Assembly: GCA_009192285.1 (NCBI GenBank)
Contig: WBVU01000008.1
Location: 2,180,370-2,244,369 of the forward strand
From: Morchella semilibera
Taxonomy: Eukaryota; Ascomycota; Pezizomycetes; Pezizales; Morchellaceae
Length of the DNA: 64,000 nt
Direction: 5' to 3'
Shown here: in pieces, positions 3,813 through 36,379 of the stretch
Layout: each line of letters opens with the position of its first letter
Position numbering within the stretch: the stretch's first letter is position 1
Position numbers and translations under genes: made by a program
Notes under the pieces: model-generated
The model's input: only the letters and a program-made list of their open reading frames with translations
Told to the model about the DNA's origin: nothing
Databases searched by the model: none

Positions 3813-5203
3813 TTTTTTTTTCTTTGGAAGAGAAAGGATTTCGAGAATTTGAGGATCGTTTTTTTTTTCTTTGGAGGGAGGGCGGTTTCGGGGTTCGAAG
3901 TAGTCTTTGGTTTTTTTTTGTGTGTTAAAAAGAGTGGGAGGATAGGGAGGGGGTTTAAGTACAGGCAGGATTTTACGCATAGCACATTACTCAATAACGC
4001 TAGAGATCCTCATGATGATGGCAGATATGTCTTCTCAAAGCCAAAAAAGTTCACTAGTACATGTATGTAGTTACATATTCATTGGCGCGTGATGCCAAAA
4101 AGGAAATTTGTTTTGTTTTTGGAGATATACTTACATGTACTCCATGTATCTTACCCTTTTCGGGGTCAATTATTTACGATATACGTCATGTCCCAATTTT
4201 GTATACTTGCTGTGTTCACAAAATGTCTTTTGGCTTAGTGGGCGGGCTAAAAAAATCAGCCTTTATGTCACAATGTACGTCTAGCTTCTCGGAGCGTCTG
4301 AATTAGATAACATATAGAACGAGCGACGTACTCCCTCTTTTCCTTTCCCTCCCGAGCTCTGGTAGTGAACAGTTCAAGCACGCCAACCGTCTAGGGTTAG
4401 GGGTGCTTTACTTTGCCTGGGTTACTGATAACCGAGTGATTGGTTATGACACACGATTAAAATAATGTTTTTTTTGTTGTCTAATTCATTAACTGTACGC
4501 AGCCCGCCAGTGCGACTAAAACCTTTTGTTATAAGGAGTACATGTAGTTGGCGATTGAATACATGTAGATAAGGCCCCCTTGCGTGGTATGGCTCTAAAG
4601 GTGTCACGAGACTCGCCAAGGATACGGTATTTTGTTGTACCAACTGGCAGGGCGATTCAGAGGGCGGGAGGCTTGCTGGATAGATTACAGCTGAACCTAC
4701 TATCTGGTTCAATAAAAACCCTAACACTGTTGAATTTCGTGATGGCTTTAGGGTCACTATATATAAGCGGTCTTGAGCTATAACCATGGGGTGTCTGGGC
4801 CTTGGTGTGGTTCCGTCTGTGGGGTGTTCCGCTACTACCAGAGCGGCTTCCCTCACCTATTCAGTGCGGTTTATTTAACTTACCTGATCCCCTAGATCCG
4901 GCGTCGCAGCGGCTGTGCAGGGGGAAGTAACATGGTGAACTGATATTGCTAGTTAAATGACGATATAAATGAGTATTCGCATAGAACTTGGGCCTAATAG
5001 CCAATAAAAAAACAAGAAAGCGCACGATGGAGTAATCCACGTTCACAATAAATATCCAGAGAAGCCAAATTACTTGAAGAAGAAAAAAGATGTAATTGTA
5101 ATAAAAAGTAATAAAGATATCCCACGAGACTAAACGATTAGTAAAGAGCACAGAAACGACAAGTTTTGCCTAACCCTAAGCGCACACCGCTTATTTCAAA
5201 TTC
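3813..5203. other. Intergenic, gene-free
   Basis: About 1.4 kb between the acidic ORF and the 3' end of SLA2. It has TACATGTA copies at about 4055, 4133, 4539 and 4558 and one copy of a poly-T small repeat (4467-4515). No supported gene was seen. Confidence 0.5.
4467..4515 (-). repeat. Small poly-A-tailed repeat, copy 1
   Basis: A T-run followed by TAATTCATTAACTGTACGCA and GCC. It shares order and much of its sequence with the elements at 13434-13479 and 13781-13845. On the minus strand the T-run would be a 3' poly-A tail. No clear target duplication was seen. Confidence 0.4.
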
Positions 5204-8200
5204 TTAGTCTGAATCTTGAACATATGAGTGTTTCCTCATCTCCCCAAGCCTGAACCGTGCTTGAGTTAATCTGTTTTCGAGTTCTTTGATTTCGACCTAA
5301 AAAACCCAAGAGGTTAATGATAACGTATAAAATGCTCGCGCGGAAATAACCTACCTGCTGTTCCATCTCTTGGACCTTAAGCTCATATCCACTGAGCTTG
5401 GAGTAATCCATGGCCTCATTCTCATCGTTATTCTTTGCTGCAATGATTTCTTGAACCTGTTTGACCAGTGATCTGCACGCGCCTGTCACGGCCTTTGAGG
5501 CATTTTCTAAGCGTTCTTGTGATTTGGACATGAATGATGCCTTAACACGAGAGGCTGCTACAAGCTGTGCTGTTGAAGCCGCAACATCATTGGCCACGAC
5601 AATCCTATATCGCCATCAGCCTGTGTGTGTATAAAAGTGTATCAAAAGAGGAAGCCCTACAATTGCTCCAGCTTATTGCGTCCACTAAGAACACCGTCGG
5701 CTGTCTCGATCAACATATTGGTGGAGGTAGCCACTGCCTTTGCAGCGGAAATCAATCCTTCTGTCCAACGGTTGTTTCGCTTGTAGAAAGCAGTCCGAGA
5801 ACTGCTTCCTTTGCCTTGGGCCACGATCTGGAGAATAGTGTGAGTCTATATATAGATGCTTGGATGGATCGCGGTATAGTTACCTCCTTCTGCGAGATAG
5901 TAGCGGCCTTGAGAAGCTGAGCAATTGCATTCGTGACTGCAATCGCGGCGTCCAAGATTGAGCTATAATGCAGTTAACCATCAAGCCCAAAAACCAGGAT
6001 AAACACAAGTTAGATGTGACATACTCATGAATTCTGATCTCAAAAGTGGAGAAAGAATCTTTTGGCTTCTTCATGAGTTGGGCCAAGCGTGCAGCAGCAG
6101 CATCTATAGCGTCCGCAACCTTACTGAGTTCATTGTCGACAAGATCGCCAATATCTCCACTAGCCTTCGACAGATCGGCCCCTTTGCTCATAAACTGTTC
6201 GGCAAGTTTTGTCAACTTCTGAAGGTTCTTTTGGACTTCCAAGTTACTGGATACAACGACATCCATCTTCTGATCTTGACTCAGTCCGTCTAAACGGAAG
6301 GACATGAGGTTCTGGAAAAATTTGACACTAGTATTTGCAGATTGTCTTGCTGCCGCCATGATGGCATCGCTTTTGTTCTCATCGGTGGCTAATCGTGTAA
6401 CACCCTTAGCATTGGCTAATACATCTGAGACTGCACCCGCAAAGACGTGAAGTGCTTTGATGATTGAAGACTGGGGGCTATTGGGGCCATCAACAACAAA
6501 GTTGTTAAACTGGGTGGCAAATTCTGTAGCGCTAAGCTGTGCTTTCTCCACCTGAGAGAGAAGGTAGCCCGGCGATGCACTCTGGTTTCCTGCATTCATG
6601 GGGGACTCAAGTTCGTACAAAGCGTCGTCCACCCGCTGAACACCACTCTGTAATACGGAGTCTGTCCGATGCCGTCAATAAGCTTCCTATATTCCGGTTG
6701 ACCTAGTTTCATACCTATAATTTCCGTCAATCTCTTCAATTGATCTAAAATTACCCCATCAATTTGCGCTTCTAAAACAACATCACTCTCGTTGTTGTGC
6801 TAAACGTAAATGTTAGACATCAATATTACCAAAGATATTGAAGGATATATACCAGTCTCATTTCGTTGAGTTCTAGAAGAGTCTGATCCATTCCTGCCTT
6901 AAAGATCTCTAGCTCTTCCTCCTTCTCTCGTAATCGTCGCTCCATGTCATGATCTCTATCGCCGATTCTAGACTGCAATTCGTCTAGGGCTCGCTGCTTG
7001 CTACGCAACAACTCCTCCATTTCTGCCATTTCCCTGTTATGTCGAGATAACAAGGCCGAGAGTTCAGTGCCTTTAGATTTTTCGTTGTTTTCGGCTTTTT
7101 CTTGTGCGAATCGGAGCTCTCTTCGAACCTTTTCAACCTCTTCCTTCTGAGTCTGGACCATAGTTTAGTATCAGTTTCATTTAAAGATGGGTTAAAATAG
7201 ACTTACTCCCTTGACACGGTCCAAATCATATAAAGCACGGTCTCTCTCCCGAATCATGTCTGCTAGCTCAAGATTCTTGGATTTCATTTCTCGCTCCAAT
7301 TTCTCTCGTCTATCATTTGCTTCTTGCGCGGATGCAGCTTTAAGCTGAATTTGTTTGAATTTACCGAGTAACTCCAGGTGTTCGTGCCGAAGCTGAGAGT
7401 AAAGCTTTGCTAAAGCCTCGTATTTGTTCTTCCACATGGACACTTGCTCTATAGATGGTTAGCATACTAAGGATTAAGCTTGTCTCGGTATCGTACCTTG
7501 TAAGGATCGGATCAGATCGTCCTTGGACGCTAGCTGTTGTCCGACATTGGACTGAAGATTTGCAATCTCGTTTTCTAAAGCCTTTACTTTTTGATCATAT
7601 GATTCAAGCAATAACAGATGCTGGTCATGGTGCCCTTTATATTCTAGCAATTGTCGTTCGAGCTCCGCAACATGCCCTTGGGCTTGTCTTGCCATCTGGT
7701 CTCTCATTAATTGCTCTTGAGCCAATCGCTGCTGCTCCATTTGTTGCCTCTGCATCTCCTCGAACTGAGCTTGCTGTTGCATAGCTTGCAGCTGCTGTTG
7801 CCGAAGTTCTTCAGCTCTTTGCGCCTCTAATTTCCTTTGCTGCTCTTCATACTCCCGTTGTTGCTTTTGCAGTTTTTCATTCGACCAGAAATCCGCAATT
7901 GCCTCTGGTTCAGGTTGTGCTGGAGGAGGGGGTGGTGGTGGAGGCGCGGCTTCTTGTGCCTCAACTGGTCTACGTGGAAGGGCCGGGGCTGTCTCCCCAT
8001 TACCCAGCAAATTCGGTGGATCCTGTCTTATGTGAGCACAAATTAAACGTCCAAGATAACTAGTATTACCTGTGGTAGTTTTGGTGGAGAAATCAGTTCA
8101 GTCAAGTATCGAAGATTTGAACACTCATAATAAAATCGGACCAAGCGGTAATGCTGGCCGTTGTAACGCTCCCGTAAAGGTGCAAGAGCATCATCGTCGC

Positions 8201-9382
8201 CAGTCGCTATTGAAAATTAGGGATCCATACGAAAAAGGGAAGGATAAGGACAGTGAAAATATACTTTGGTGCATAGCCCTAAGCATGCTAGTGATGAATT
8301 TGTAAATCCCATAACTTTCCTGAACCAGCGGTACAAGTGCAGAAATTCTGCATTCATTGTCAACCCCATGCCGGAAATGAGAGAAAATGAGTTTCTGGAA
8401 AGTCTCAATTTGGTCTTGCAGAGTCATCAAATCCATAATTGTCTCGTATCTGTAGAGAGTTAGTTTATGTTTCGGAATATGCCCGAGCGTCTAAAGGTAC
8501 CCTTCGTTTGGATCATTGATTGTTTTTAGACTGATGTATTCTTCATAATCAAATACACCTGGGCAGGAATTAGTTCTCGCTTCTAAAATAGAATGCCTCT
8601 TAGAAACTCATACCATCAAACTCTGGGTGGTGCCGGTGGAATGCAAGCTTGGCCAAAAGGAAATATACATATTCCCGGATTAATGGTCCATAACCTGATC
8701 TTGGAGTTAGCTGTTCGGCAAGATGATTGTTATTCCCGAATGATACTGCCGTACCCCGGATGCCTTCATCGGAAGTCCCGTTAGTAAGTGATTCTAGCCA
8801 CCCAGTATGGGCATGAGCCTCTCTAATTGTGACCGGATGGCCTTCTTGGAGAACTTTGTGTATGCAAATCAGGGCTTTGAAGGTCTGAACTTCGCTTTGC
8901 AAGATGGGTAGCCTGTGAAATAAGCTCCGGTGTCAGCGCACGGACTCGCCCGAAATAATAGGAGTAAGCTAGAGACCTACACTTTCAAGCCGGACCAAAA
9001 CGATGTTGATGATTTATGGTCCCAGGTGTAAACGATGCAAGACCGGACGTGCTTCCCTATAATTGAAATTCTTTAAGCTCCATGTCCTCGGGCCCTGTAG
9101 CTTCAAAGGAATGACACACGTTTAGGAGCCTTTTCCTCTATGTGTTAATACGGAAGTTAGCCGATTGCCTGCTGATAAAATCCATGAACTAGACTCTACA
9201 TACCAATGTTGGTAGCTTTCTTGATATTGATAGAGAGGTCCGTCTCAGTTCTATGTGAGGTTTAGAATAAACCCATCATTAGTTTCGATTTCTCACCAGC
9301 TAGATCTAGTCAGCACGGAGGTATACTAGGGTATCACTAACCTAGTCATATCGACATTTCGGGACGCGCCGCTGTAGGACAT
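5204..9382 (-). CDS. SLA2: Sla2/End4 (HIP1R family) endocytic actin adaptor, frameshifted
   Basis: Endocytic adaptor linking PIP2 membranes and clathrin to actin; it conventionally marks one side of the ascomycete MAT locus. Sixteen exons from 9382 down: 9342-9382, 9204-9250, 9120-9137, 8991-9056, 8614-8912, 8501-8558, 8265-8449, 8070-8206, 7497-8022, 7207-7448, 6853-7152, 6025-6799, 5884-5962, 5661-5827, 5355-5604, 5204-5296. The N-terminal ANTH domain reads RSCIVYTWDHKS and EVQTFKALICIHKVLQEGH. A Pro/Gln-rich stretch and long coiled coil follow, then the C-terminal THATCH/I-LWEQ domain (VQRVDDALYELES, GSSSRTAFYKRNNRWTEGL, AASTAQLVAASRVKA). About 1,089 residues would be normal. In the twelfth exon, between EYRKLIDGI and LQSGVQRVDDALYE, 14 extra bases shift the frame and would stop translation before THATCH. 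All other exon phases agree, which isolates the defect. Confidence 0.93.
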
Positions 9383-11581
9383 GGTGAACGATGGGGACGA
9401 TTCCCGATGCTAAGATAGTTATTGAAGGACCCGTGGTTGATCACTGAAGCTGAGTGTTGGTGAGAAACACAAGCAATGCGAGGGCAGAAAAGGCACCCTA
9501 GTTATAATGAGGTACTGATGGAAAGGTTTGTTAAGGCGGGGGGTGTTCCGTGGGGTTTATGTATGTAGGTACCTGGTACACTAGTGTAAGTGAGGTATTA
9601 CCTGGGGAACCGGCGGTGAAGCAGGTGAAACTCTGCCAAGCCGGGAATTCAAGGTGGTGAGGCGCTGGGGCCGCGCAACTGTCTGACGACTACAGGAACA
9701 AAATTATTTTATCTATACATATCTCACTGAGCTTGAATAGGGACCTAAATGTGCAAAGCTAATAATTGGGTCCAATAGATGTATTCTTGAATTTTCAGCC
9801 TTCTAGGAAGTGGGAAAGAGAAACCCCCACTCCAGGAACATAGATATCCTATCCCCAAGAATTTAGGACATAGTCCAACAAAGCGAGTAAATCTAAGTGT
9901 TCAATAGTGATAATCACTGTTAACAATTAAATAGAGGAAAGAAGAAAATATAGGGTTTGTGTAAATTTCTGATAAGCGGGGGCTTAAGATTGATAGAGAG
10001 TACATGTAATTACTCTACGTAAGTTTTGAAGAAAGAAAGAAATGAAAAGAGGAGATAGAAGCAAACGATTTCTAACCATAGGCTAATCTTTACCTAAGAG
10101 ATATCATTCCGTGATACGCAATATCAAGTACCCAGGACAATACAGGCCGTGTATTCACAAAGGAGACTAATAAAAGATGGGAAGAAATAAAGAAAGCTAG
10201 TTCTCATGATTAAACAGGCTGCCTCTTACAGACGGGAGGGCAAAGGTGGATTTCATATAGCAAAGTACACATGCTGCAGAAGCTCACGAAGCAAAGAACT
10301 GATATCGCTGGCGAGAACTCCCCCCTCGAAACGTTGATTTTGCGTAATGTCATATGATAGCTGATGGTGAGCACCTGGAATGGAGAGTAAATACGTTAAG
10401 CGGGTAAGAGTGGTCGGCAGTGGTATTGACAAAACCATACTCACAAAGGCTATGAATATCCATGCTGGAAGAAATGTTTGTGGTTTATTATTCCCACCCA
10501 CCAGCTGGAGCGCCCAGGAAGTTAAATAAGCGTTTATTGCGCCGATTGAGAAGAGTCGAACTATGGTAGCTAGTTATTCGATATCGTCAGCCTGGTTCTT
10601 AAGATCCCTTTATTTTTATTTATTTTTGTTCTTTTTTTTTTTTGAAGACCCTCCAACATCATGGCCGAATAAAGAAGGGAAAGACCTTTGGGAGTGTAGT
10701 AAATGAGCCTAGCTATATTAGCAAATACTAAATACTTGTGGGTAGGATTCGTGATCGATACGTACCATCTCGCCATAAGGTTATTAATTAGAATATATGA
10801 AAGATATGCGGAAGTGCCACACTGTGAACAGATCGTTAGAACCACTACTACCTACGAGCGTAAAGTTACGCTTTAAAAGACCTCTATTGGTACGCACCCA
10901 AAGACATGCCAACCAGAGCTCAACTCCAGAACACCTGAGACCTGTGTTGCTCAAAATCGCCAAAGCACACCTAGAAAGTCCTAAAATACTGGGGCATACC
11001 GAAAGCCCCCGGCATAATATCAATGGAATATGATAGCATCTATCGACTCCCAGGATGGAAGCCACCCGGGGGTGCTGAAGGTTGGCCCTGGAGGGATTTG
11101 TGGGATCGCGAGGGTCCTCTCGCGCAGACGCCGGAGCCAGCTGAGCTGTCTACGCGGCAATATGCTGCCGCGATGCACTATACAAGACGTTAAGGGAGAA
11201 GGTTCTGTTGAAATTCTGTAGGATACGAAAGCTATGGTGGGCTGTAAGATTGGAACGTTAGGTGAAGACAACAACTGACGCTACCGAGACAAGAAAGGAG
11301 CTAGGCATGAAGCAAGGTGCAAGGGACAGGTGGAGGGATGAGGCTCAAGCGGGGCACGCTGAGGTGCTGCAAAATATATCGAAAATTTGTGATATGAAGA
11401 TTGGGATTATTATATGAGAATTATAGATACGTTTATATGAAAGAGCTTGAGCCAGGCCAGTTTTATGTATATCTCATCTGTTGTACAGAAACATGATTGT
11501 TTCCTCCCAGTGTCACGAGTATCATTTTACAACTCCGAAACGGGCCGTGCGAATCCAGGATCTTCACCACAATCGCTCACA
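9383..11581. other. Intergenic between SLA2 and MBA1
   Basis: About 2.2 kb between two divergent genes, mostly AT-rich with a GC-richer patch at about 11040-11180. A possible tiny two-exon ORF is listed separately. Nothing else could be supported. Confidence 0.5.
10253..10469 (-). CDS. Possible small two-exon ORF, about 46 codons
   Basis: On the minus strand ATG-GAT-ATT-CAT-AGC-CTT precedes a GTGAGT donor; a CCAG acceptor is followed by an open frame encoding AHHQLSYDITQNQRFEGG and ending in LLRELLQHVYFAI. The donor and acceptor are good and the peptide is not low complexity. I recognise no family, no other exon is evident, and the size alone makes chance likely. Transcript data would settle it. 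Confidence 0.2.
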
Positions 11582-14744: not shown

Positions 14745-16495
14745 TCATCGCAATGTCGTATGTTCTTGGCTCGAGAACTGTTGGAATGCCTGTAATTGGG
14801 GTTGTGGAAAGTTTTCAGAGGTGTAAATTTCTGAAATGAAATAAGTGTTTTCTGTGGGAGTATTAGCCCTACCACGTAAGGTTAGTAGAGAAAAGGGACA
14901 CCAACCTTTAGTGAAATCAAAATTCTCCTCAGCCTCCTTGTTTTGAGGATTATATATCCCGTGAGGTACCTGGGGATTTGCCGCTTCAGGCGCAATACGA
15001 CAGGGTTCTGGGCAAATATTTGGAGCTGTATATGTCTGTGGTAGTACATAAGATTCTTGGTCTGTATATAGTTTAAATATGGCAGGGGCTTTTGGTTGTG
15101 GACAAGCTTGTAGATCTTGATATTGTTTAAATTTTGAATATGTCTCTAGTTCTGTATATGTTTCCGGTTCTGGGTGGGTTTCTGTTCTGAGGTGGGTCTC
15201 TTTTTCTAGGCAGGTCTTTGTTTCTTGGTAGGCCTTCTCTAAAGCACTAGGCGATCTCATGAGAGGTAGCCTAGCGGGTAGGGGGCATAATCTAGGATCG
15301 AGCTGGTTTATATCGTAAGAAACTGGAATTATAGGTCTCCAGTTTTGAGGAAGGTCACTAAGTATTTGATCGGGAATAGGTTGTTCATATGGTGCGAGAG
15401 CTTGTGCTGGTAGGGAACGAATTGCGTGTTGAGAGGCACTTTCTCTCAGTTCTGAGCGTGAAATGGTTTTCCTATTTCTCAGCCGAGGTCTGGTAGAGGC
15501 GGAACCTTTTGATACCCTGAAGATAGTTGACGTGGGCGACAGTAAGATAGGTTCCACCTTGTTATACTCCATCGTGGAAGAATCAGGTACTGTAGGGGCT
15601 TGAAAGTGAACGGTTGGAATATCGTGGATATCGGAATAGGTCTGCTCGGTGGGTTCCACAGTCCCAATAGCGGAAGTTTGATCATTAGGCGGCACGCAAG
15701 TTGGGACCATTCGCTTTCTCATATTGTCGATGTTTATACCGCAGATGTTCAGGAACGATCGAGGGGAAGGATCTTGTTTGTTCTCAATAAGCTGTGTTTT
15801 TATAAAATCCTCGAGGGTAGTTGTAAGTGTCCCATCATCTCGGTGGGATGTGTACATTCTTGCTATATTGGACCACATGGCTTTCCTCTTCTCACGTTGC
15901 CATAAACCTTTGGTGAGTGCCGAAATCAACATCTGTGTAAATCCTAGCCCTCCTAGGAACTTCGATATCCAAGCTAAAAAAGGAATAGAAAATTAAATCT
16001 AGAAGTAATGGGTGAGGGAATTATTTCATTCTTACCCCTATGTGCTATATAAGGGTTGAGAGCTTTCAAAGTTGACCGCTTGGACAATGGTTCGCCGAAA
16101 ATCGTCGGTTTGTTGTTCTTATGGTGTTCATCATAGAGCTTTTGCACTGAGTACTTGAACGGGACTTTAGGATCTAGAGCCACCCTTCCCTCCATACGTA
16201 CAAGTCGATGTATAAGACCGAGCCATCTCTGGAACGGGAAGGCAATGCCATTTACATGAAACACGGAGCCCCCTGGAGGGGGAACAATATATCGACAGTC
16301 TCTGTGTTGAACCCAGATTCCACCGCCTCGATCCTGCATTAGAAGATATTGGTGAATTTTTGAGAGATAGAGAGCGCAGCCCAAAGTTGCGTTGCGAAGA
16401 TAAATCGCCCGCTTCACAGAGTCCAGAATCATAACGGACTCAAAAGGTGGGTTCTTATGAATCAGTCCAGTAAGATAAACCGGGCGAAGTGACAT
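14745..16495 (-). CDS. MAT1-1-1: MAT1-1-1 alpha-box mating-type transcription factor
   Basis: Alpha-domain DNA-binding protein that determines MAT1-1 mating identity. Exons 16036-16495 and 15973 down to 14745 are joined across a 62-nt intron (GTAAGA, TTTTTTAG) inside the alpha box, where MAT1-1-1 genes commonly carry one; together they give 562 codons. The alpha box spans about residues 140-205: STLKALNPYIAHR, then AWISKFLGGLGFTQ, then ISALTKGLWQREKRKAMWSN and IARMYTSHRDD. The pattern of LNPYIAHR followed by a WQ..KRKAMW helix is diagnostic. The C-terminal half is disordered with imperfect repeats of the form ETxxExET near residues 370-410. The start was taken at MSLRPVYLTG; MILDSVKRAI at 16432 is an alternative. 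It sits between SLA2 and COX13/APN2, as expected for MAT. Confidence 0.88.
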
Positions 16496-17382
16496 GAAGA
16501 ATATAAATAATAGGGGGTAATATATAGTTAATAAAGAAAGGAAAAGAGCCTTGGAGGGCTTTATTGAAGCGTACCGCTGCAAAGGAAGAGAATCAAAGGG
16601 ACAAGTCCATAGATGGCCACATACATGCATATATATATGTATATAAAAATACGCTGCACAGGCGCAACAAACCAGTGTATACAGTGTAGCTGTAAGTACA
16701 TGTTACATACATGTAGGGCACGATTTATTGCATGTATACAGAATAGATACATGTATGTAAGTACATGTAGTTTCTAATGTATAGAGACTCACATGCAGTC
16801 TATTGAGCGAGTGCTGCAAAGGCTGCAGGTTAGTGTTTCCGAATACTACATGTACATTTATGCGCGTATCGAGCTTGAGAGTAGAAGGTGCTGTTACTAC
16901 ATGTATACATGTATACTCTTCTAGTGGTCACCTACATGTACTTAAGTAATTTCTTAAAACATGGTTTTTCTCATAAAGGTCTTCGGATGAAAGTTCGCAG
17001 CTTGCCTTTTTGAGATAATATTAGCTTAAGCAGGCAGCTAATATTTATTTTTGATTGGCTCTATGGTTGTTATCAACCATTAAGAGCAACGAATATACCC
17101 AACTCAGTACGTGCACGGTCCAGGCTGCGAATTTGACGATTTCATCCGTCCAAGAGATAGCGAAGTATGCGTACAGCTGTGAATAGATCTTGAGATTATA
17201 ATACCTGACAAATTTAAATTCTGTGTGTGTAACTGCTTTAATCTCCATCTGTAAACTGAAAGCCGAATTGGGATTAGATGCCGCAGAGAAGCAGGGATGT
17301 TGTAAACAAAGAAACAAAGAACAAGATCCTTTGACAAATGGTCAATGCTAAATCAGACATTTTCTTACATGTACTTGCCAAA

Positions 17383-17443
17383 TTTTTATCAATAGGACGG
17401 GGGTAGGTAATGGCTGTAGCAACCGAAGTCCTATTGATAAAAA
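17383..17443. repeat. Perfect 16-bp inverted repeat, 29-nt loop
   Basis: TTTTTATCAATAGGAC (17383-17398) is answered by GTCCTATTGATAAAAA (17428-17443). The arms are perfect and the loop is 29 nt, as in the unrelated hairpin at 12782-12844. Confidence 0.7.
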
Positions 17444-17933
17444 CTTGACTAGTACATGTATGTGTGGGGGGCGGTCACAAATACCACGTGTATGCTGCGT
17501 TCTAATAACGGGTTTCAAAACACCATGCCCAGTGGAACAAGCTGCTGCCCGAATATAGTTGACGTATATATCGGATATTTGGCTCCCGGATGGATCTTCG
17601 GTCAATATTACATGTAGGTATGTACATGGTTATGGGCGGGGGCAAAGAACATATAACATGAAAATCTAAGTCCTCTATGGTTATCAATATTTGGTTTTGG
17701 CCCTCAAAAAACACAGAAAAGACCTAGAGCCTTGGACCGTTTGGGGTAATAATCTATGTCCATATTCCTGCGGCATGCTAGAAGTTGTAGCCCCCACGTG
17801 AAAATGATGATATGTGGAGCTGATACATGCACATGACTTAGCTATTCCTTCGCGCGTCGCAGCAAAAACTGAGACATATTAGCCCCAACGGCGTGGTGAT
17901 ATTCAGGAAATCAAGCATATATGTACAGACTGT

Positions 17934-18069
17934 ACTCGTCTACCATCATAAGAACCAGAAAATGCAATTACCCAGGGCAAGAATATGTATAGACTGACGA
18001 TGATCTCTCCTACAAATAATTCCTGTTTCTGTCACTTGCATTTTCTGGTTCGTATGCTGGTAGACGAGT
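17934..18069. repeat. 34-bp near-perfect inverted repeat
   Basis: The arms at 17934-17967 and 18036-18069 match at 32 of 34 positions (ends ACTCGTCTACC and GGTAGACGAGT, inner AACCAGAAAATGCAA). The spacer is 68 nt. There is no coding potential. It could be a MITE, or a structural or regulatory element of the MAT spacer. Confidence 0.7.
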
Positions 18070-18517
18070 GCATGTGAAAACACTAAAGTAGGCATAAGAT
18101 AGGTCGCAGAAGGGGCAAAGAGGTTCTACATACATGTAGCGAGTAAAAGCTGGCTGCCAGCTCCCGGCCGTAACAGACAAGGGACTTGGACCCTCGAGAT
18201 ATGCACTGATGCAGTCGAAGGGCAGTATAGTGCATTTATTACATGTAGTAAAACGAGTATATGAAGTCGTCATACGAGATACAACAAGTACATGTATGTA
18301 TAGGCTCGGTATGTTACGTTTTCTACATACACAACTCACTCATTATGCATTAAATACATGTATCTTAAGATTTGTCAGAAATAGCTACCAGCTTCACATC
18401 CTCTTCCCTTTCCTTCCCTTTCCTTCCCTCTTATAATACACAGACCCTCTACGGACGAGAGATCCCACCGCCTCTAGCATGACCGGTTAGATCTAGAGAC
18501 TGTGTTTAAATTCTTTA

Positions 18518-20169
18518 ATGCCTCAGCCATATCTTCGTAAGATAATATTCCGACTTCCTTGGCACCTACCAACAGCTAAGAATCTTATAGCCTATAAGGA
18601 CCACTTTATCCTTAATGATCAACGACGGGAAGCAATTCTTCGACTAGGACGTGTTTTGATACAAACAAAGAATGACCTAACATTCTTCCCAAGAACACCC
18701 TATAGCTTCAAGATCAGAAAGGCGATCATATTTTGCACCGACACGCTAAAGGAACTCAAGATTAAAAACCTCCACCCGGCGCTCTTGGACAGACATAAGG
18801 ACATCTATCCACTGGCAAATCTTTATAACCTTGGGGTGCAGATACTGGCTCTTAGAGAGGTTAATATTAGGCTCGAGAGGGATATTGAAAAATGGAATTG
18901 CGGTTTAAAGACCCTGCAGGGCTCGCTCCCGGAAGATTCATGTGATGTTGGGTTAATCCTGGTAGAAGTTCATGAGTTTTTAGTTTTTGCTACCACTGCG
19001 AACCAGATTCACCCTTTCCACACACTCACACCTTATTCGATCAGGTGTGCAGCTAAAGCAGCACAGAACTCAAGGCTGCTAACAGAAGCCGCCCACACTC
19101 TCTCAATACTTCGTGCAGCATTTAGTATACAGAATGAGCTACAGATTCGGAGAACGTCGAAAACTACAAGAAGCCGTATCATCAGTAACGCAGTTTCACT
19201 TCCAAAAGTAGCTCTAAACATCTGTTCTGACTGGTATAACTACCGTGGATCACACGCACTATATACAGTCAGTATTTATACTCCTTTTAAACATTATACT
19301 TAACTAAGAACTAATTGTCAATAGAAAATTCGTCGGAATGATATATCAACTCCGATTCCATTCGAAAAGCTTGTTACATGGTTTAGTATGTTTAAACATT
19401 TCTGGTCTATAGTTTATTTTCTAATGATACTGCTTATTAGCCAATGCGCGTCGCCGAATTATAAAACACAATCAAGCCATCCGCCCCGGTCTCAAGGCGA
19501 TAGTTGATGAGGCTCTATCATCCAAGAGATCTTTTAAGACCGATATTTATATTCAGGCTCGAGGTAGTAATGGGGATGACGACCCTGAATGGGAGATCCC
19601 TTTGAGTCGAACGATAGCCGAATTTCTTGATGAGCTTGGGGATGCGCCGCATGGATTAGGTCCGCCCAGTAATTTCGTTATCAATAATTTTGGCAGCGGC
19701 CCACCGATTCTTCCCACTTTCTTAGTGGACAATAACATGGACAAAGTTACCCAAGGGTGCCAACGTCTATTAAAATCCATTTATAGTTTGTTTAACGAAA
19801 TATCGTGTGCTTGCCTTGATATATTTCAGAGAGCCTATTGGCTTGATGAAAGGAATAGATATAGTTATACCTTAGGAGCAAAGAGAGATATGGATTATAA
19901 TTGCCTTCGGTAAATTACCTTCCCAATACAACTAAGAATTGATTGGCTCATGTAATGGAATATGTAGGGCTATCAGCGTCCTTCTGGCTACGCGGGAACC
20001 CAATGAAACTTATTTTGAGTGGCAAAATCATTCTCGGTCAGACTTATTTGAGGCAATCTTTGATGTTTTTCCAAACCCAAACATTACAGAGGAAGAGTAT
20101 CTATCCAAAATTACCGGGATAAATGTCAATCAGATCCATACTTGGTGTGAGAAATCTTTCAACCACTAA
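18518..20169 (+). CDS. MAT-adjacent gene with homeodomain-like segments, three exons
   Basis: I do not recognise a described gene. Proposed exons are 18518-19271, 19441-19909 and 19968-20169 (about 474 codons). The second intron is solid: 58 nt, GTAAAT to TGTAG, keeping frame (NCLR/AISVLLATRE). The first junction is uncertain: donors at 19272 (GTATTT) or 19245 (GTGGAT) both keep frame, and neither is strong. The N-terminal 200 residues are helical (ALREVNIRLERDIEKW). Exon 1 ends LNICSDWYNYR and exon 2 opens NARRRIIKHNQ, together resembling homeodomain helix 3 (WFxNARRR). Exon 3 has FPNPNITEEEYLSKITGINV then NQIHTWCEKSF, resembling helices 2-3, with Q44, I45 and W48 present but WFxNxR replaced by WCEKSF. 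It is divergent from MAT1-1-1. A mating-type role is inference. A frame error near the first junction cannot be excluded. Confidence 0.5.
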
Positions 20170-22717
20170 CCTCCAACGGTCGTATATATTTGCCTAACAA
20201 TGCCCTCAGTCCTCTATAAACGCCATAAATCGAATCGACCAGCTATGACAGCCGTGCGAGCTAGCTGGTTAATCTAACCCTCTGATATCATGGAGTGGAA
20301 ACAAAATTCCGTAACTGGGTGCGGTCCTTTAAGGATATAAATTAGGATATCGTTCAATTATACTTGTTTAAAGTTGACTAGGTCAGCTCAGTTCTAATGA
20401 TATTTATTTTAGAGACTAAAGTAAGAAATTCCTATCCCGTTTCTTATCCGATAAATTTTCTGCCTATGACTTCCATCTAGGAATATCCGGGCTTAAAATA
20501 ATCAAGAGCACCTGTACTTAGGATGATTCTGAGGGGAATTGTGTGAACTAATTGTTATAACACTTATGCTGTGTTTGCCCCCTGTTACTTTCTATTAGCA
20601 GCTTATTTCAGCTATAAAATCAATGGTAATTGGGATTTACCGAAATTATTTTTAGAGAGTATTACTTTGTTCAGGGCATAGGTATACAATATCCTCTGGA
20701 TTATGGATGGTATCGGTGCCATCGTGCCTAAAGCTTAATTAAATGATAGCCCTGAAAATGTTTTGAAAGTCGGACGAATCACTCACTGACTGGGCGGAAA
20801 TAAACCTTGCCTTGGTACCCGTCATTGTCACTATTTCACAGCTCATATAAAGGCAAAAATTGTTGCCGATAAATCCCAGAAGTTTCAAGGATAGGATATC
20901 TATGAAGCTAAGGGGCCTAGTGTCTCGAATGAAGTTATGAGGGTTAGATATCAATTCCGTAAGTACGTGTAGCTATATATATAACTCTTGATTTGGTTCT
21001 ACAGCCACGGGATAGACATTGTCCAAAAAATACTGGCATGTCCGATACGTGTATGTATCTTGATATCAATCTTATATCATCTTTTCAGTTTGCCCTCAAG
21101 GTTTTCGCTCTGAACTGTAGCAGGATGATTTTATTTAGTGCTTGCCTCATGATAAATAGGAAACCTGCTCAGCCATGGAAACTTTACATACATGTACTTA
21201 CGCCATTATAGATCTCAAGTAGCTTTATGTAGATTTATCTAACTTTGCACAAGATCCTCCATATCCAGTATACAGGCAGTGCGGTGCTATAGTTACGTGT
21301 ATATTTTCGAAGGACTTCCCGTAAGCGGAATAGAGAGTTGATTTTGGGTAGATCAGGTTCCCGTATATAAGTGTCTTGCAATCTCTAAAGATCTAACCGA
21401 CTGTTAATACAAACATGTAGTAAGGATTTTCTCTATGACACCGGATAGAAAAATGTAAGAATATCGATAGTAGTAGACAATAGACACCCTGTTCTATTTG
21501 ATAGAACATCCAATATGTTATGTGCGAAAATGCGTATGCTAACATTATCACTTATGCTTCAGGCCGATCAGTCACTGTTTAAAGAAATTAATAAGTATGT
21601 GGTAAAGACCCAACATTAGGGCACATACACCATATTTCGAGGCTGGTGAAGGCGGGAACTCACATAATGTGTACCATGGTTTGACTATATGCATCAACCC
21701 GTTTACCAGCCCCTGATTTTCTGATAGGTATTACTTAATCATTTAGAGACTCGCTTAGGTTCAGCGGGATCTTTCTAAAGGGAAATCGCCGTCGAGATTC
21801 ACCCGTACAACTAAATTAACGTTAACCTCTGCTCCCAAAGGGTTGGGGGAATGTTTATATCACAACTTAAGCTTCGAGTGCTGAGGACTAAACGCTTGAA
21901 TCTTCTATGTTCGTCTGGCCTTACTAATGGCAGATAGCAAGAACTACTCCTGGTTGACGTGTAACTATTAGCCAAAGTTAACTAATTGAAACCCTGCCTG
22001 GGGCTAAGTACCACAACTCACTCGATTTATGGACGCCCGGGCTCGAATGCTTCATCAATGTATGTAGATGCAAAGGACACTATCCACAATGAGTGTCTAA
22101 AGACCCGTAGAAGCCTGTGGTGACCCAGGTGCCTTTGCATGTGCTACAGCATGTAGTTTGCAATCCATGATATGTAGTTACCTCACATAACAGGCCGAAG
22201 CTGCTTCGTGAAGTTGAGAAACAAGAGTAGATCTGTAAGCTGACTCCTTGAAGGCACCCCAGACTCTCCCGAGTCGGTTCTAGAAAGTCAGCTCTTGTGT
22301 GCCTGGGCCGAGTGATGAGCCTATGAAGCAACAACAGGCACATGTATTGGTGGGTCCTAGCGTCTGCACCCCAGTGACGACACACGACCCCCCGGCAGCT
22401 CACACCCAATCAGAGAAACGCCGTTAACAACCTACCCCGCCAAGCGCCTTCCTCCCCCGAGAGTCTCCTTCATTAGCTAAGCAGCGCGACCCGATTCCCG
22501 AGGTTGAAAGGGATTTGATTTTCCGTGGGCATCGAACAATCACGAGCCCCTCCAAACCTCTTGGAAACGCCGCTCGCCGCTCCCCCCCCTCTTCTTTTTC
22601 CATCCCATCTTCTCTTTCTATTCGCCTCCTAAGGGAACTTATAAGGAATCCCCACATATCCCTGCGGAGTTCAATTGACAACTTCAACTTTATTAGTTCA
22701 CCAACTCCACCTTCATC
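20170..22717. other. Gene-free stretch between MAT region and SDHB
   Basis: About 2.5 kb, AT-rich to 22400 and then richer towards the SDHB promoter, which has pyrimidine-rich blocks at 22580-22640. Open frames are short and lack family features. One TACATGTA lies at about 21189. Nothing else was recognised. Confidence 0.5.
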
Positions 22718-23757
22718 ATGTCCGCCTCAATCCTTTCGCGCACCGCCCTGCGCGCCTCCTCTTCGATCGTCCGTCCCGCCGCCGCCCGCACTCTTGCCTC
22801 CGTAGCAACCTCACAGAGCGCCCCAGCTGAGAAGACGGCCAACATCAAGAAGTTCGAAATCTACCGATGGAACCCTGACACACCCGACAAGAAGCCGTAT
22901 ATGCAGACATACGAGCTCGACCTCAACCAGACCGGACCTATGATATTGGATGCGCTCATTAGGCTGAAGAACGAGGTTGATCCTACATTAACCTTCAGAC
23001 GAAGCTGTAGAGAGGGTATCTGCGGGAGTTGTGCAATGAATATTCAGGGTAGCAACACCCTGGCTTGTCTATGTAAGTTTAACTACAGCCCCCCCCCCCC
23101 CACCCCTGGTCAAAAAGCGAGTGATGGCTGATGGATCTAGGCCGTATCGACACCTCGTCCACCGCCCCCGTCAAGATCTACCCGCTCCCCCACACCTACG
23201 TCGTCAAGGACTTGGTGCCTGATTTGACACATTTCTACAAGCAATACAAGTCTATCAAGCCGTACTTGCAGCGCAAGACCGCCGCTGATGACGGAAAGGA
23301 GAACCGCCAGTCCATTGCTGAACGTAAGAAGCTCGATGGATTGTACGAGTGCATTTTGTGCGCATGCTGCTCTACTTCTTGCCCATCATACTGGTAACTT
23401 CTCTGTTCCTCCCCTTGCTTTCCTTCTGGGTGCTAACAGAACTTCTAGGTGGAATTCATCCGACTACCTCGGGCCCGCCATTCTCCTCCAGTCTTACCGC
23501 TGGATCGCTGACTCAAGAGACGAGTTCAAGGCTGAGAGAAAGATGGCTATGGAGAACGAGATGAGCTTGTACAGATGCCACACTATCATGAACTGCTCCA
23601 AGACTTGTCCTAAGGGTCTAAACCCGGGCCTGGCCATTGCTAACGTAAATACACCCCCCCCCCTCTCCCCACATACACACACACACGCACGCACCCTAGC
23701 ATGCTGGATGCTAATTGTTGTGAACAGATCAAAAAGGAGATGGCGTTCGGTTCATAG
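22718..23757 (+). CDS. SDH2: Succinate dehydrogenase iron-sulfur subunit
   Basis: Subunit B of mitochondrial complex II, carrying electrons from FAD to ubiquinone through three Fe-S clusters. Exons 22718-23072, 23141-23393, 23449-23644 and 23728-23757 total 834 nt (277 residues). An Arg/Ser/Ala-rich presequence ([16 protein letters not shown]) is followed by the 2Fe-2S ferredoxin domain with [11 protein letters not shown], then the C-terminal 4Fe-4S/3Fe-4S domain with [15 protein letters not shown] and [17 protein letters not shown]. All ligand cysteines are present. The last exon encodes only IKKEMAFGS. It is convergent with ATP4 downstream, about 600 bp apart. Confidence 0.97.
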
Positions 23758-24363
23758 GCATGACAATGGGTAGATTTGGTTTTGGCGCTTGGGAGCGACG
23801 GGTGGTAGTGCTGTTTTTCTTCTCCGAATCCGAATGCTACTAAACGCATAGCTCGGGGGTTAAGAGCTTAAAAGACAAAAGGCCCAGGTTTTATTGAAAA
23901 AAAGGGGGGGGCAGGAGGGCTGCGTCTTCCGTGGACTTTTTTTTTTTTTTTCTGTATATGGGTGGACGGATAGGGTAGGATAGCCGGATGCAATAATTCG
24001 GTTAATTTTATGTTTCTTTCCTTCTTTAGAGCAATCGAGTGCGTTTTATACTTGAACCCATTTATTTTTTTTCTTTTTACTACTATATTTGGTTTCCTTC
24101 ACCATTTTGCACTCGTCCGTTTCGTTTCGTTTCACAGCTATCCATGTATTTACCCTAGCGAAAAAAAAGCAATCGAAAAAAAGTCAAAAATATCACAATG
24201 GGAAGTTCTACAGCATAGTCAGATAAAAGAGCCCATTTTGGTTATTTCTTCGCGCAACTTCACATTTCAATACACATGCCTGCTTGCTTATTCTTTACAC
24301 TTAAAAGATTCTATATTCCCACCGGGATGGGTGTCCGAAAAAAAGCTACCCCTACACATACCC
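23758..24363. other. Convergent 3' intergenic region SDH2/ATP4
   Basis: About 600 bp of AT-rich DNA with homopolymers (poly-T at about 23938) between two convergent stop codons; presumably the 3' UTRs of both genes. No other gene seen. Confidence 0.5.
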
Positions 24364-25328
24364 TCAAGCCTTTCCGGCAATGATCCCTATCACATAAAAT
24401 TAGTTACTGCTATCCTACACAAACCCGGGTATGTGACGACAATAACGTACTCTCAACATCAGCGACGCTCTGCTGTAGGATCTGCTGGAGAGTCTTGGGG
24501 TTCTCGAGCTCCCTCTTGACCTTGGCAATCAAGGTCTCGGCGAGCTCCTTCTGCTCGCGCTGCTTCACCTGGGCCTCATAGCGAACCCAGGAGTCAAGGA
24601 CCGACTTGGCCTCAGACACGAAGGTGGTCTTCTGTTCGAGCTCAAAGGCCTTGGCCTCGAGTTGAGCAGTTTCCTATCCCTCCCATCAGCAAATCCGCCC
24701 ATCCAGTGTTTATCCCTCCACCCATATATCCATTGCGTTCCATCCATTGATTGAATTCCTGCCCTCATATATCCCTCCCGGTACGCACCTTGGAAACGGC
24801 GAACAAGTCCCTTGTAACCTCCACAACGGTCCCCATCTGCCCAACGCTCTCAATCCTGTCCTTCACAGCCTGGGTGTGGTCCGCCCTAGCGCTGTTCAAG
24901 ATATCCCTAATCTTGGCGACCTGTGTGTCGGCCCATTCCTTGTAAAGCGGTCCTCCATATTTAGCAATTGCGGTGAAGACACTCAACAAACAAAAGGCAA
25001 CAATAGTCTCCTCGTTGACGACGTAAAGTTCGTTAGAGATAGCCCAGATGCTGACCCCGGCGGCCGATGAGAGAATGGCGGTCTTGGTGATGAGGGAGCT
25101 ACCAGGGAGCGAGTCGAGGAGCGATTGGGCCTTTGACTTTGGGTCCACGGGGGCTGGTGGGGTGGTAGACTGGAAGCGGACGGATGGGGCGGCCATGGCC
25201 AGACGTGGGAGGAGGGAGGTGGTGGGTCGGAGGCGGGCAGCACCTGTGCGGGGTTTGGGGGGTTAATTCTGCTTCCATCGGCGGGGGGGTGCGGGAGAGA
25301 TACCCGAGAGAGATTTGGCCAACCGCAT
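24364..25328 (-). CDS. ATP4: ATP synthase subunit b (subunit 4)
   Basis: Peripheral-stalk subunit b of mitochondrial F1Fo-ATP synthase. Exons 25304-25328, 24789-25243, 24451-24673 and 24364-24386 give 726 nt (241 residues). The first exon encodes MRLAKSLSG, and the next continues the presequence (AARLRPTTSLLPRLAMAAPS). A hydrophobic hairpin (AAGVSIWAISNELYVVNEET, then FCLLSVFTAIAKY) precedes the long charged stalk helix (AKAFELEQKTTFVSEAKSVL). The last intron was set at 64 nt with a CTAAT branch site; the final exon then encodes RIIAGKA after SVADVE, as in relatives. A 36-nt alternative acceptor would end the protein at VER. Confidence 0.95.
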
Positions 25329-26455
25329 AGACATTGTGGATCAGTAACGGGGGGGTGAGACAATTGCTTGTGTTGAGGGGAGATGGCGAGGTTCTTCGCT
25401 ACGGCGATGGTTGATTTTGTTTTTCGGGTGATGAAACGATGTCGGGAATTGTCGCCGCCCGAGAATTATCAAATCAGGCTGGTGGAGGGCTCAGGGTTAG
25501 GGTTGGTGACAGGGGTGAAGAAGTTGACTTGGCTCCGAATATCATTCGGTCGAATGCGCTGAAATGATGGCTCCTGTAATATACGCCGGACGTAACTGGT
25601 TCCACCCAGAAAGACTGTCGTTGAAGTTGCCTATGGTCTATTAAGCCCCTGATCGAGAAAGGTTCACTTGTCTTCAAGTAGGCATGTAAATGATATATAG
25701 AATCGATAAGATATATGTATATTGCAGTGGGGATCCATAGACAGGATCCGACGGAAGGATTTTGAATACTATACCCACAGACCTAAGTTATTTCAGGTTT
25801 ATATATGTGTAGCTTCCTTTTCATCAAGCAAGAGCTTGAGATCCCTCCCCATCAACATCCTAAAATCCCATGATACCGTTTACGACTTCTGAACAAATCT
25901 TGGATGTATGAGGCTTTTCTTTGTGTGATATAGTTCTATCGATTTTTTCGTCTATTTTAAAATTATCCCACTTGAAATGTTCCTGCCCTACCATGGCATC
26001 AACTTGCATATGTTTGTTCAACGAAGGCCACCAAAACATATCTAATTCCCCTCGTCCCAGCAAAAGAGATAACAAGCAGAGAAAGGTGTAGCGGCAGTTG
26101 ATAACCACCAATTAAGAGGAATTCCCCCTTGACGGGGAAAATTAAGAACGAGTAATGATATGTCTGGCCCTAGCTTTTCATTTAGTCTTTATTGTCCCTT
26201 CCGACAGTAACACCGGAGCCAATGATGATGTATCTCATCGGCATGCCCTCAATTCGCACCCGTCTATAAACTTCTGGTGAGCATTGTCCAGGGGAAAGTT
26301 CAAAGCAATAGCTGCTTTCTCTCCCTGTATTCTCTCATTATCAACTCTTGGGTCACTCACCCACCCATAACTCCCACAGGTTCGAATAAATAGTAAAGAA
26401 ATATAAAAAAAATAAAACGTACCGCCCACAGACAAAAACGAGAGGTTAGACTCGA
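25329..26455. other. Intergenic between ATP4 promoter and TFIIE-alpha
   Basis: About 1.1 kb holding the ATP4 promoter and the 3' flank of the TFIIE-alpha gene. Only short, non-descript open frames; no repeat of note. Confidence 0.5.
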
Positions 26456-33773: not shown

Positions 33774-36379
33774 ATGCCCTTACGAATAACAACATGGAAC
33801 GGTAGGCCTCTTTTCGAAAATTCGAAAAATCTAATGTACTGACCATCTGATGGTCTTGCTGCAGTCAATGGTATTCGGTGAGGACATGCAATTGACTAAA
33901 TCCTGAGGCAAATCTGATTTCAAATCCAGAAATCCGTTTTCATTCCATCCATGGCTTGGCAAGACCTTCCAAGTATGTTCGCTTTAATAAAGGGTCACCT
34001 GTTTCTCGTGCTTATTGAGTGTACGGCTTTCCATGAAATAGGCGATGTTCGACACTTTAGAAGCCGATATCGTCTGTATCCAGGAACTCAAGATACAGAA
34101 GAAAGATCTCAGGGATGACATGGTCTTGGTTCCGGGCTGGGACTGCTTCTGTACGTTTCCAAAGCATAAGAAAGGTATGATTTGATATTGATATGTCTCT
34201 TCTTAAATGGGATCTATTGTCTAAGACAGATACGGGGTTGTTCATGATCAGGCTATAGTGGTGTTGCAATTTATACACGCCAATCAAAATGCAACCCTGT
34301 AAAAAGCCGAAGAAGGCATAACTGGAATTCTCTCGCCCCCAGGCCGTGATGGAGTGACATATTTGTCCTTACCATCATCCGAGAGCATTGGCGGTTATCC
34401 TAAACTTCCACTAGAAGAAGCTGTTTTAATTGATAGCGAAGGCCGCTGTCTTATCCTAGACTTTGGAGCGTTCATCCTTATAGGTTTATACTGTCCAGCG
34501 GATACAGACCCTGCACGGGAAGATATCCGGACCGCATTCGCTGGGGCGGTGGATAAACGAGTTCGAAATTTGATAGAGGTCGAAAAGCGGAGGGTAATAG
34601 TTGTGGGAGATTTGAACATTGCGAGAGACGAGATTGATAATGCTGCTGCAAAACAAATTATGATGGAATTTAACCTAGAGAACTTTAAACACACACCAAC
34701 ACGCCAAATTCTTCATAATTTGTTGGAGCCACATGCTAATGGCGTCATGGTCGACCTTTGCAGAGAATTCTTCCCGGAGAGACGTGGGATGTACACATGT
34801 AAGTTACATGTATTTGCAACCTTTACACTTCTAGTGACCCTCAAACCAAAGTGATTTTTAATGAAGGTCCCCTCGACCGCCGTCCCCAACTAACATTGTA
34901 TCCGATTACTTTGATAACATTTAGCTATGGTGGATATTATTGCTAACTAGATCATAGGTTGGTCTGTGAAAGAAAACGCAAGGTTAGTTTTGAAGCTTCG
35001 GCAGGTGTCACAAAAGATTAAAGCACGGGCCACAGAATACTGATGCTCCTACTACTATGACTGTCTTTGAGTGAGCGCTAAAGCCATTATAACCAAAATC
35101 TAACATATCTATACTTCTTCTAGGCCAGGAAACTATGGTATTAACACGAAAATGATAATCCTCTGTTATGCACGTCTACTAAATACCACACATACAGGGC
35201 AGCGTATAGATTATGTACTATGTTCCTCAGATATGAGAACGTGGTTCGAAGAAGCAAACATACAGGAGGGCTTGATGGTAATGGCTCCCTCGTTTTAAAC
35301 ACACCGGAGAAGCTAATTTTTTAAGGGTTCTGATCACTGCCCGGTCTATGGAGTGATTAGTGAAAAAGTAATTAGTGGTGGACATGAGCAGTATATTTTT
35401 GATATTGTAAACCCGCCCGGGCTTTTTGTCGACGGGAAGCGCCAGCCTCACCAAACTGCCCCAAAACTAAAGTTATCAGCAAAAGAGTCTGGTGAGTATG
35501 CTGGGAGGCAGAATATACGGGACATGTTTTCAAAAGCTGCGGCCCAAACAAGTTCCAGTATCAAAACGAGAAACGTTCCTGATATACATCCGCTTCCAAA
35601 AACACCTGAAGATTCCGCGACTAGTAGCAGATCCGCCCAATGTGACCCGGCGGCTTCGATATCCAGTACTACAAAGGGCATCTCTCAGCAAAGCGTTTCG
35701 TTATCTGTACCCCTAAAGCCTTCCCGGGCACGAGAGCCGCCAGCAAAACGGCAAAAGGTTGCCCCGCTAGGCCTACTCGGAAAGAAACCTACTGCCACGA
35801 CCTCAAAGAAACCAGTTTCTCATAGCCAACAGAGCTTGATGGGTTTCTTTAAAAGGCAGACACCTGTGGGTGAGAGTCCAACAGCTACACCACCTGAACC
35901 TCCATCAAGTCGACAAAGCCCATCCACCCCAATTTCGAGTGTCAAAGACGCTGAGCCACAGGACGTGGACCCGACTCAAAATGCATTTATAGATGAGGCA
36001 TTATCAGAGAGTGAACTTATAATAGTCCCGTCTCAAGAGGGAGAAAGTGGATTTCCTTTAATTGACCCCATCGAGTCTAAGGAGAAATGGTCCCAATTAT
36101 TTTCAAAACCCGCTGTACCGAGATGTGAGGCGCACAACGAGCCTTGTATAAAATTAATCACAAGGAAACCTGGTCCAAATGTCGGTAGGGCGTTTTGGAT
36201 GTGCTCTAGGTGGGAATCTCCCCTTTACGCTCTTTTAAAATATTATAATAACAACTAATGGTCCAATTAGGCCACTTGGGCCAAGTGGAAATAAACTCAC
36301 CAATGGACAAGTAGGAGAATGGAAGTGTAACTTTTTCAAGTGGAGTAGTGATAAACCCAATACCTCCGCAAATATCTAG
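33774..36379 (+). CDS. APN2: AP endonuclease 2 (class II, Apn2), one-base frameshift
   Basis: Exonuclease III-family DNA repair enzyme and a classical MAT-flanking gene. Ten exons: 33774-33801, 33865-33877, 33930-33972, 34042-34174, 34252-34798, about 34959-34983, 35124-35137, 35198-35277, 35326-36209 and 36271-36379. Catalytic motifs: ITTWNVNGIRNP, DIVCIQELKIQ (metal-binding Glu), YSGVAIYTR, GLYCPAD, VVGDLNIA and the terminal GSDHCPV. A PCNA-binding box QQSLMGFF and a C-terminal GRF zinc finger (RCEAHNEPC, KPGPNVGRAFWMCSR, then WKCNFFKW) follow. At about 34301-34305 an A5 run gives one base too many: NPVK|AEEGITG needs A4. This may be a sequencing error or a real mutation. Exons of 13 and 14 nt are noteworthy. 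Confidence 0.93.

Follow-up and report, generated by a model that had tools for sequence, protein, structure and literature searches.

In yeasts and mushrooms, mating is controlled through homeodomains, which are DNA-binding domains. In filamentous ascomycetes, mating is generally ascribed to alpha-box and HMG proteins, and the other half of the fungal mating system, based on homeodomains, is regarded as missing. In Saccharomyces, the MATalpha locus carries an alpha-box gene (alpha1) and a homeodomain gene (alpha2) that are transcribed divergently. The basidiomycete HD1/HD2 mating proteins comprise one TALE-like homeodomain and one homeodomain of typical spacing, with a long N-terminal region, and Pfam Mating_N and Mating_C are domains of these proteins. 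The MAT genes of filamentous ascomycetes usually lie in a SLA2-MAT-APN2 frame.

Auxiliary MAT genes have been described in some of these fungi. According to the excerpts of Pizarro et al. (2019, PMC6414310), lichen fungi carry auxiliary genes in both idiomorphs: a MAT1-1 gene situated between MAT1-1 and SLA2, and MAT1-2 genes, which in some species contain a homeodomain leucine-zipper domain (pfam11569). A Letharia study names MAT1-1-7 and MAT1-2-14, and its main text does not contain the word homeodomain (PMC10512270). In Botrytis cinerea, mutants deleted for MAT1-1-5 or MAT1-2-10 form stipes but develop no further, and in the excerpted text the authors propose that croziers form under the control of the two products as 'possibly dimeric' regulators (PMC5821092). 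The figure legend on MAT structure in a 2010 comparison includes a category for homeodomain genes (PMC2999568, seen as an excerpt), and an excerpt of a survey of Leotiomycetes lists the MAT genes of the class plus a new one of 90 residues without known domains (PMC10569646).

In the present study, we examined a window of 64,000 nucleotides from Morchella semilibera (bases 2180370-2244369 of contig C22), and we found a predicted homeodomain gene on the plus strand, with its ATG at 18518 and a frame that stops at 20169. The gene is divergent from MAT1-1-1 and lies between SLA2 and APN2, that is, inside the MAT locus. The main features of the locus, in window positions, are as follows.

5196..9400 (approximate), minus strand: SLA2; ANTH domain at 69.9 bits in 8600-8932
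14745..16495 (approximate), minus strand: MAT1-1-1; alpha box, Pfam PF04769 at 34.7 bits (cutoff 28.1), the alpha-box intron being placed by eye
16496..18517, no strand: divergent intergenic region from MAT1-1-1 to the homeodomain gene, 2.0 kb, containing TACATGTA 14 times, plus three dispersed repeats
34303..36258 (approximate), plus strand: APN2; GRF zinc finger at 25.3 bits, just under the cutoff of 25.9, in 35317-36258

Judged from its sequence, the locus is the usual SLA2-MAT-APN2 frame with the APN2 side stretched by housekeeping genes. Between MAT1-1-1 and APN2, the stretch 22697-28000 holds SDH2, ATP4, and a gene that by eye looks like TFIIE-alpha, and APN2 begins about 14 kb past the homeodomain gene. 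The 5' part of APN2 (34303-34854) gave no Pfam match at E 0.01, and its endonuclease character was judged by eye; a class I tRNA synthetase of the W/Y type lies in the APN2 region. Our MAT1-1-1 model places about 138 residues ahead of the Pfam alpha-box match, which covers only positions 40-137 of 194.

In DNA searches of the genome, SLA2 gave one match and the APN2/synthetase (TrpRS) region gave one match; thus, the locus, which is of the MAT1-1 type, is present once. None of the ten HMG-box matches in the assembly lies on the MAT contig. One of them (L005) is Ste11-like by eye, and an unlinked MAT1-2-1 is possible among the other nine. Some contigs of the assembly look like near-duplicates: C9 and C10 (2.07 Mb each), C12 and C13 (1.58 Mb each), and C21 and C22, which both carry matches at almost the same positions, near 0.16 and 1.11 Mb. 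The assembly may therefore contain uncollapsed copies or two haplotypes. The window also contains a long NLR-like gene (46095-50572), in which, by eye, a NACHT-like text precedes numerous ankyrin-type repeats; this layout is of the type of fungal heterokaryon-incompatibility genes.

We propose a four-exon structure for the homeodomain gene, with the following parts.

18518..19267, plus strand: exon 1; N-terminal 250 residues, the final part being helix 1 of the first homeodomain (HD1), SLPKVALNICSDWYNY...
19268..19324, plus strand: predicted intron 1; 57 nt, GTCAGT...CAATAG, by splice rules
19325..19385, plus strand: exon 2; 61 nt, KIRRNDISTPIPFEKLVTWF, encoding helix 2, the turn, and the start of helix 3 of HD1
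19386..19440, plus strand: predicted intron 2; 55 nt, GTATGT...TATTAG, by splice rules
19441..19909, plus strand: exon 3; starts within helix 3 of HD1, (T)NARRRIIK
19910..19967, plus strand: predicted intron 3; 58 nt, GTAAAT...TATGTAG
19968..20169, plus strand: exon 4, including the stop codon; open frame to the stop at 20169
19196..19469, plus strand: HD1, residues 227-280; spliced across introns 1 and 2, with W48, F49, N51, and R53 kept
20029..20154, plus strand: second, homeodomain-like segment (HD2), about residues 448-489; degenerate, with the recognition helix HTWCEKSFNH lacking N51 and R53

The predicted product of this model has 493 residues, and the frame is open across all the predicted exons, which are separated by GT-AG introns. 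For intron 3, an alternative in-frame acceptor at 19976 would give three residues fewer. The first open frame is 268 codons from stop to stop; when 18400-20300 was dinucleotide-shuffled 1000 times, no such frame exceeded 194 codons. The GC contents at the first, second, and third codon positions (0.486, 0.387, and 0.405) are gene-like and resemble those of five neighbouring coding stretches. The homeodomain gene looks like a real gene.

An earlier, sequence-only reading of this DNA had proposed three exons and a product of 474 residues, presumably with a single intron of 169 nt (19272-19440) in place of our introns 1 and 2. That reading missed the 61-bp exon in the 19268-19440 region, which completes HD1. 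We enumerated the possible models, allowing one intron or two, with donors in 19150-19419 and acceptors in 19280-19479, intron 3 being fixed and the frame open to 20169. This gave 19 open models; the four-exon model itself was first spotted by eye with a homeodomain in mind, and the enumeration came afterwards. Strict rules for the donor, branch, and acceptor were satisfied by two of the 19, namely the four-exon model and the 474-residue model, so the splice signals do not separate these two. On a profile of TALE homeodomains, the four-exon model scored highest (22.1 bits), ahead of a runner-up at 13.1 bits, and the 474-residue model scored 4.5 bits. The splice signals narrow the field and the homeodomain score decides; therefore, we prefer the four-exon model, and the three-exon structure is probably wrong.

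HD1 (residues 227-280, SLPKVALNICSDWYNYRGSHALYTKIRRNDISTPIPFEKLVTWFTNARRRIIKH) is very likely a homeodomain, as judged from sequence comparisons. In the usual numbering of the homeodomain, W48, F49, N51, and R53 are the mark of helix 3, and both the sequence and the alignment of HD1 retain all four in WFTNARRR. The homeodomain identity suggested by the sequence-only reading is therefore borne out, and more strongly than was then thought, the recognition helix being intact once exon 2 is included. Its helix 3, given as 'SDWY ... NARRR', is under the four-exon model correct in one half: NARRR ends the complete helix 3, VTWFTNARRR, which spans intron 2, whereas SDWY belongs to helix 1.

Among the PDB sequences listed at E<=10 for HD1, 11 of 16 distinct sequences are TALE homeodomains, with E-values of 0.0032 for PKNOX1, 0.005-0.0085 for Meis1/Meis2, and 0.032-0.11 for TGIF1/TGIF2LX. 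The remaining matches listed are four deacylase entries (E 1.1-1.7) and one designed repeat protein, which is the top match by whole-chain E-value (0.00096), with no single repeat passing alone. When the whole protein was the query, nine of 11 matches were homeodomains (E 0.036-1.1). The TALE profile was built from four PDB domains matched by HD1 and from the TALE gene of the genome itself. HD1 scored 24.3 bits on it, a score that none of 10000 shuffles reached (8424 reported, maximum 12.9), in a test that is mildly circular in that the profile members were picked from matches of the same query.

The Pfam results were closer to the thresholds. The HD1 fragment alone scored 14.4 bits on Homeobox_KN (cutoff 24), through only 12 residues of helix 3, and was outscored by the unrelated Hikeshi-like_C at 17.3 bits, itself far under its cutoff of 27. 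The whole protein barely passes Homeobox_KN (PF05920), at 24.3 against 24 bits, through two separate stretches.

Members of the TALE class carry a three-residue insertion, which gives a domain of 63 residues. HD1 shares with PKNOX1, Meis, TGIF, and the TALE gene of the same genome (L001 on contig C14) the N-terminal motif LPK-x-A-x-N-I, the W of helix 1, and WFxNARRR in helix 3. However, it has about 61 residues, two fewer than the aligned TALE domains, at a site that depends on the alignment. Because of this shortfall, we call HD1 TALE-like rather than a canonical member of the class. The protein also differs from these TALE proteins in that the rest of it matches no Pfam family and in its probable second, degenerate domain.

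The last exon contains the string NPNITEEEYLSKITGI...NQIHTW, as the sequence-only reading had noted, and the sequence of HD2 there is ...SRSDLFEAIFDVFPNPNITEEEYLSKITGINVNQIHTWCEKSFNH. HD2 aligns without gaps to the homeodomains of DUX4, that is, with the typical 60-residue spacing. In the PDB, six of eight matched sequences are of the DUX4 type, with whole-chain E-values of 0.023-0.034; these values are low because two DUX4 domains are summed, and the best single-domain E-value is only 5.9. The other matches are ZHX3 (0.29) and the designed repeat protein also matched by HD1 (0.038). On Pfam, Homeobox_KN gave 16.0 bits (cutoff 24) and Homeodomain gave 13.2 bits, both under the cutoff. On the TALE profile, HD2 scored 12.6 bits, which was reached by one of 10000 shuffles (9184 reported). 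A single-sequence AlphaFold model of low confidence (pLDDT 57.8) has helices at 23-33, 41-47, and 53-64 of 66 and two short strands, and a fold search with this model gave no meaningful match.

At the positions that mark helix 3, HD2 reads WCEKSF, with N51 and R53 substituted, and the protein terminates inside the recognition helix. For these two reasons, conventional DNA binding by HD2 is unlikely. The comparisons suggest that HD2 is likely to be a degenerate homeodomain. The earlier idea of two homeodomains in one protein is plausible but weaker than the case for HD1: HD2 combines the 60-residue type of spacing with a decayed helix, and its matches are marginal, as the single-domain DUX4 value and the shuffle that matched its score show.

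The predicted product would thus consist of about 220 N-terminal residues, the TALE-like HD1, a middle part of about 150 residues, and probably a degenerate, homeodomain-like second module at the C terminus. The N-terminal 225 and middle 154 residues matched no Pfam family at E<=10, in a search whose HMMER filters discard most weak matches, and a search of NCBIfam gave nothing at E<=1. The structure model of the N-terminal region (pLDDT 31.8) was uninformative. A protein search of the genome (56.76 Mb, 23 contigs) at E<=10 returned only the exons of the homeodomain gene itself, and no second copy was found. Neither of two homeodomain models listed the gene when the genome was scanned in six frames, presumably because HD1 is interrupted by introns 1 and 2, and the case illustrates how introns that cut a homeodomain could hide such genes from scans. 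As expected for a fungal gene, scans of bacterial and archaeal genome contigs (12 pattern matches) and of viral contigs (two pattern matches) gave no relatives.

We then compared the gene with the described mating systems. As in Saccharomyces, a homeodomain gene is divergent from the alpha-box gene in a mating locus of the alpha type. In contrast to MATalpha2/a1, two homeodomain-like parts occur in one protein, and the intergenic region is 2.0 kb. No alpha2 or a1 chain was listed at E<=10 in the PDB for the whole protein, HD1, or HD2; alpha2 chains are present in the library and were matched by the TALE gene of the genome. With the basidiomycete HD1/HD2 proteins, the product shares the pairing of a TALE-like homeodomain with one of typical spacing and the long N-terminal region, but both domains lie in one polypeptide. 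No match to Mating_N or Mating_C was listed at E<=10, nor was pfam11569 among the Pfam matches listed at that threshold, the HMMER filters again discarding most weak matches.

Among auxiliary genes, Lecanoromycete MAT1-2-14 is reported to have a homeodomain-zipper domain in some species, but it belongs to the opposite idiomorph (PMC6414310, in excerpts). Lecanoromycete MAT1-1-7 and Eurotiomycete MAT1-1-4 are also auxiliary and lie beside MAT1-1-1; they are known here by description, and the excerpted sources state no homeodomain for them. Botrytis MAT1-1-5 and MAT1-2-10, compared likewise by description from an excerpt, are secondary MAT genes needed after fertilization and described as of unknown function. 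The sequence-only reading had considered homeodomain genes to be undescribed in the MAT loci of Pezizomycotina. This is too broad with respect to the homeodomain zipper of the MAT1-2 auxiliary genes (PMC6414310), but it holds for the MAT1-1 idiomorph to the extent that, among the matches listed in our literature search on homeodomain or homeobox and MAT genes, the excerpts report no such gene there.

The simplest reading is that the gene encodes a MAT1-1-specific homeodomain regulator, for which a role in mating is plausible by analogy. We consider it somewhat more likely than not that the gene, functional-looking and part of the MAT1-1 region, encodes a homeodomain transcription factor of 493 residues that operates as yeast alpha2 or the basidiomycete HD1/HD2 proteins do. 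Behind this stand the open gene structure, the plausible splice sites, the homeodomain match, the kept contact residues, and the place beside MAT1-1-1. If the gene is expressed and spliced as predicted, its product would be made together with that of MAT1-1-1 from the divergent intergenic region. HD1 would bind DNA, and either HD2 or the N-terminal region would offer a surface for interaction with a partner, probably one contributed by the other parent. The protein would then act in the fertilized (dikaryotic) phase. A pair of homeodomain proteins that meet after fertilization would fit the block after stipe formation in the Botrytis deletions of MAT1-1-5 and MAT1-2-10.

A gene of this kind beside MAT1-1-1, divergent as yeast alpha1 and alpha2 are, makes the absence of the homeodomain half testable. 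It could mean that a group of fungi has kept a form of mating control that was thought to be missing there, and it gives the auxiliary MAT genes 'of unknown function' that are active around karyogamy a possible, concrete role. A far bolder extension, which we regard as improbable, is that the ancestral mating system based on homeodomains has persisted in Pezizomycotina. The auxiliary genes MAT1-1-4, -5, and -7 and the present gene on one side, and MAT1-2-10 and -14 on the other, would then be diverged partners that meet only after fertilization, like alpha2/a1 and HD1/HD2, and that have gone unrecognized through intron-cut domains and drift. Of these, the gene described here would have eroded least, a single chain keeping both a TALE-like domain and one of the typical type.

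The main risk to the novelty of the gene is that it is a known auxiliary MAT1-1 gene by another name, a homologue of Letharia MAT1-1-7, Eurotiomycete MAT1-1-4, or Leotiomycete MAT1-1-5; only the recognition of its homeodomain would then be new. We hold this with slightly less than even confidence. According to the excerpts of the Letharia study, MAT1-1-7 lies within the MAT1-1 idiomorph, has homologues in Eurotiomycetes and Diplodia, and is contrasted by the authors with unrelated genes between MAT1-1-1 and SLA2; it is thus presumably on the APN2 side, as our gene is (PMC10512270). The auxiliary MAT1-1 gene of Pizarro et al. (2019) was, in the excerpts, present in every species examined with that idiomorph, highly divergent, and variable in intron number, but it lies on the opposite side of MAT1-1, towards SLA2 (PMC6414310). 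Moreover, the excerpted texts mention no homeodomain in the MAT1-1 auxiliary genes, for which the comparison is one of descriptions only (PMC6414310, PMC10512270).

It is unlikely that the gene is an ordinary homeodomain gene that happens to neighbour MAT in strains of either mating type, with no function in mating type. In favour of this, the interval from MAT1-1-1 to APN2 also holds SDH2 and ATP4 and is therefore not idiomorphic throughout, and five other loci in the genome pass a homeodomain cutoff (near-duplicate contigs counted once). On the other side, the gene shares with MAT1-1-1 an A+T-rich stretch at 12-22 kb (GC 0.39-0.42, against 0.42-0.62 in the rest of the window, in 2-kb steps), and the sequences of its homeodomains have diverged strongly, which is common among MAT genes.

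A pseudogene, left by the decay of a mating gene of the homeodomain type, would account for the degenerate recognition helix of HD2 and the two residues missing from HD1, but 493 codons open over four predicted exons with GT-AG introns, the intact contact residues of HD1, and the gene-like codon-position composition make it very unlikely. Least credible of all is a chance resemblance without any homeodomain: single-domain scores do fall under the Pfam cutoffs, Hikeshi-like_C does beat Homeobox_KN on the HD1 fragment, and HD2 has its matching shuffle and its single-domain value of 5.9, but no shuffle reached HD1, the splice model with the best homeodomain is one of the two with the best splice signals, and two separate stretches take the whole protein past the Homeobox_KN cutoff.

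The palindrome TACATGTA is concentrated in the divergent intergenic region, which holds 14 of the 32 copies in the window, against expectations of 0.1 there and 0.8 window-wide. Elsewhere, the densest 2 kb contained four copies in the window and six in the other fetched loci. The word is over-represented genome-wide, with 2666 close pairs against 129 for the reversed control, and autoregulation of the locus through TACATGTA was for this reason dropped as a claim. CATGTA-like cores are known for alpha2 and for TALE proteins of the IRX type; a link of TACATGTA to the homeodomain gene is speculation.

The three dispersed repeats of the region lie at 16991-17160, 17366-17460, and 17931-18073. The second is a hairpin element whose arms are 82% complementary, with TACATGTA at both ends. 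Copies that are 99-100% identical occur elsewhere in the genome, and by its sequence the element looks like a recently active MITE.
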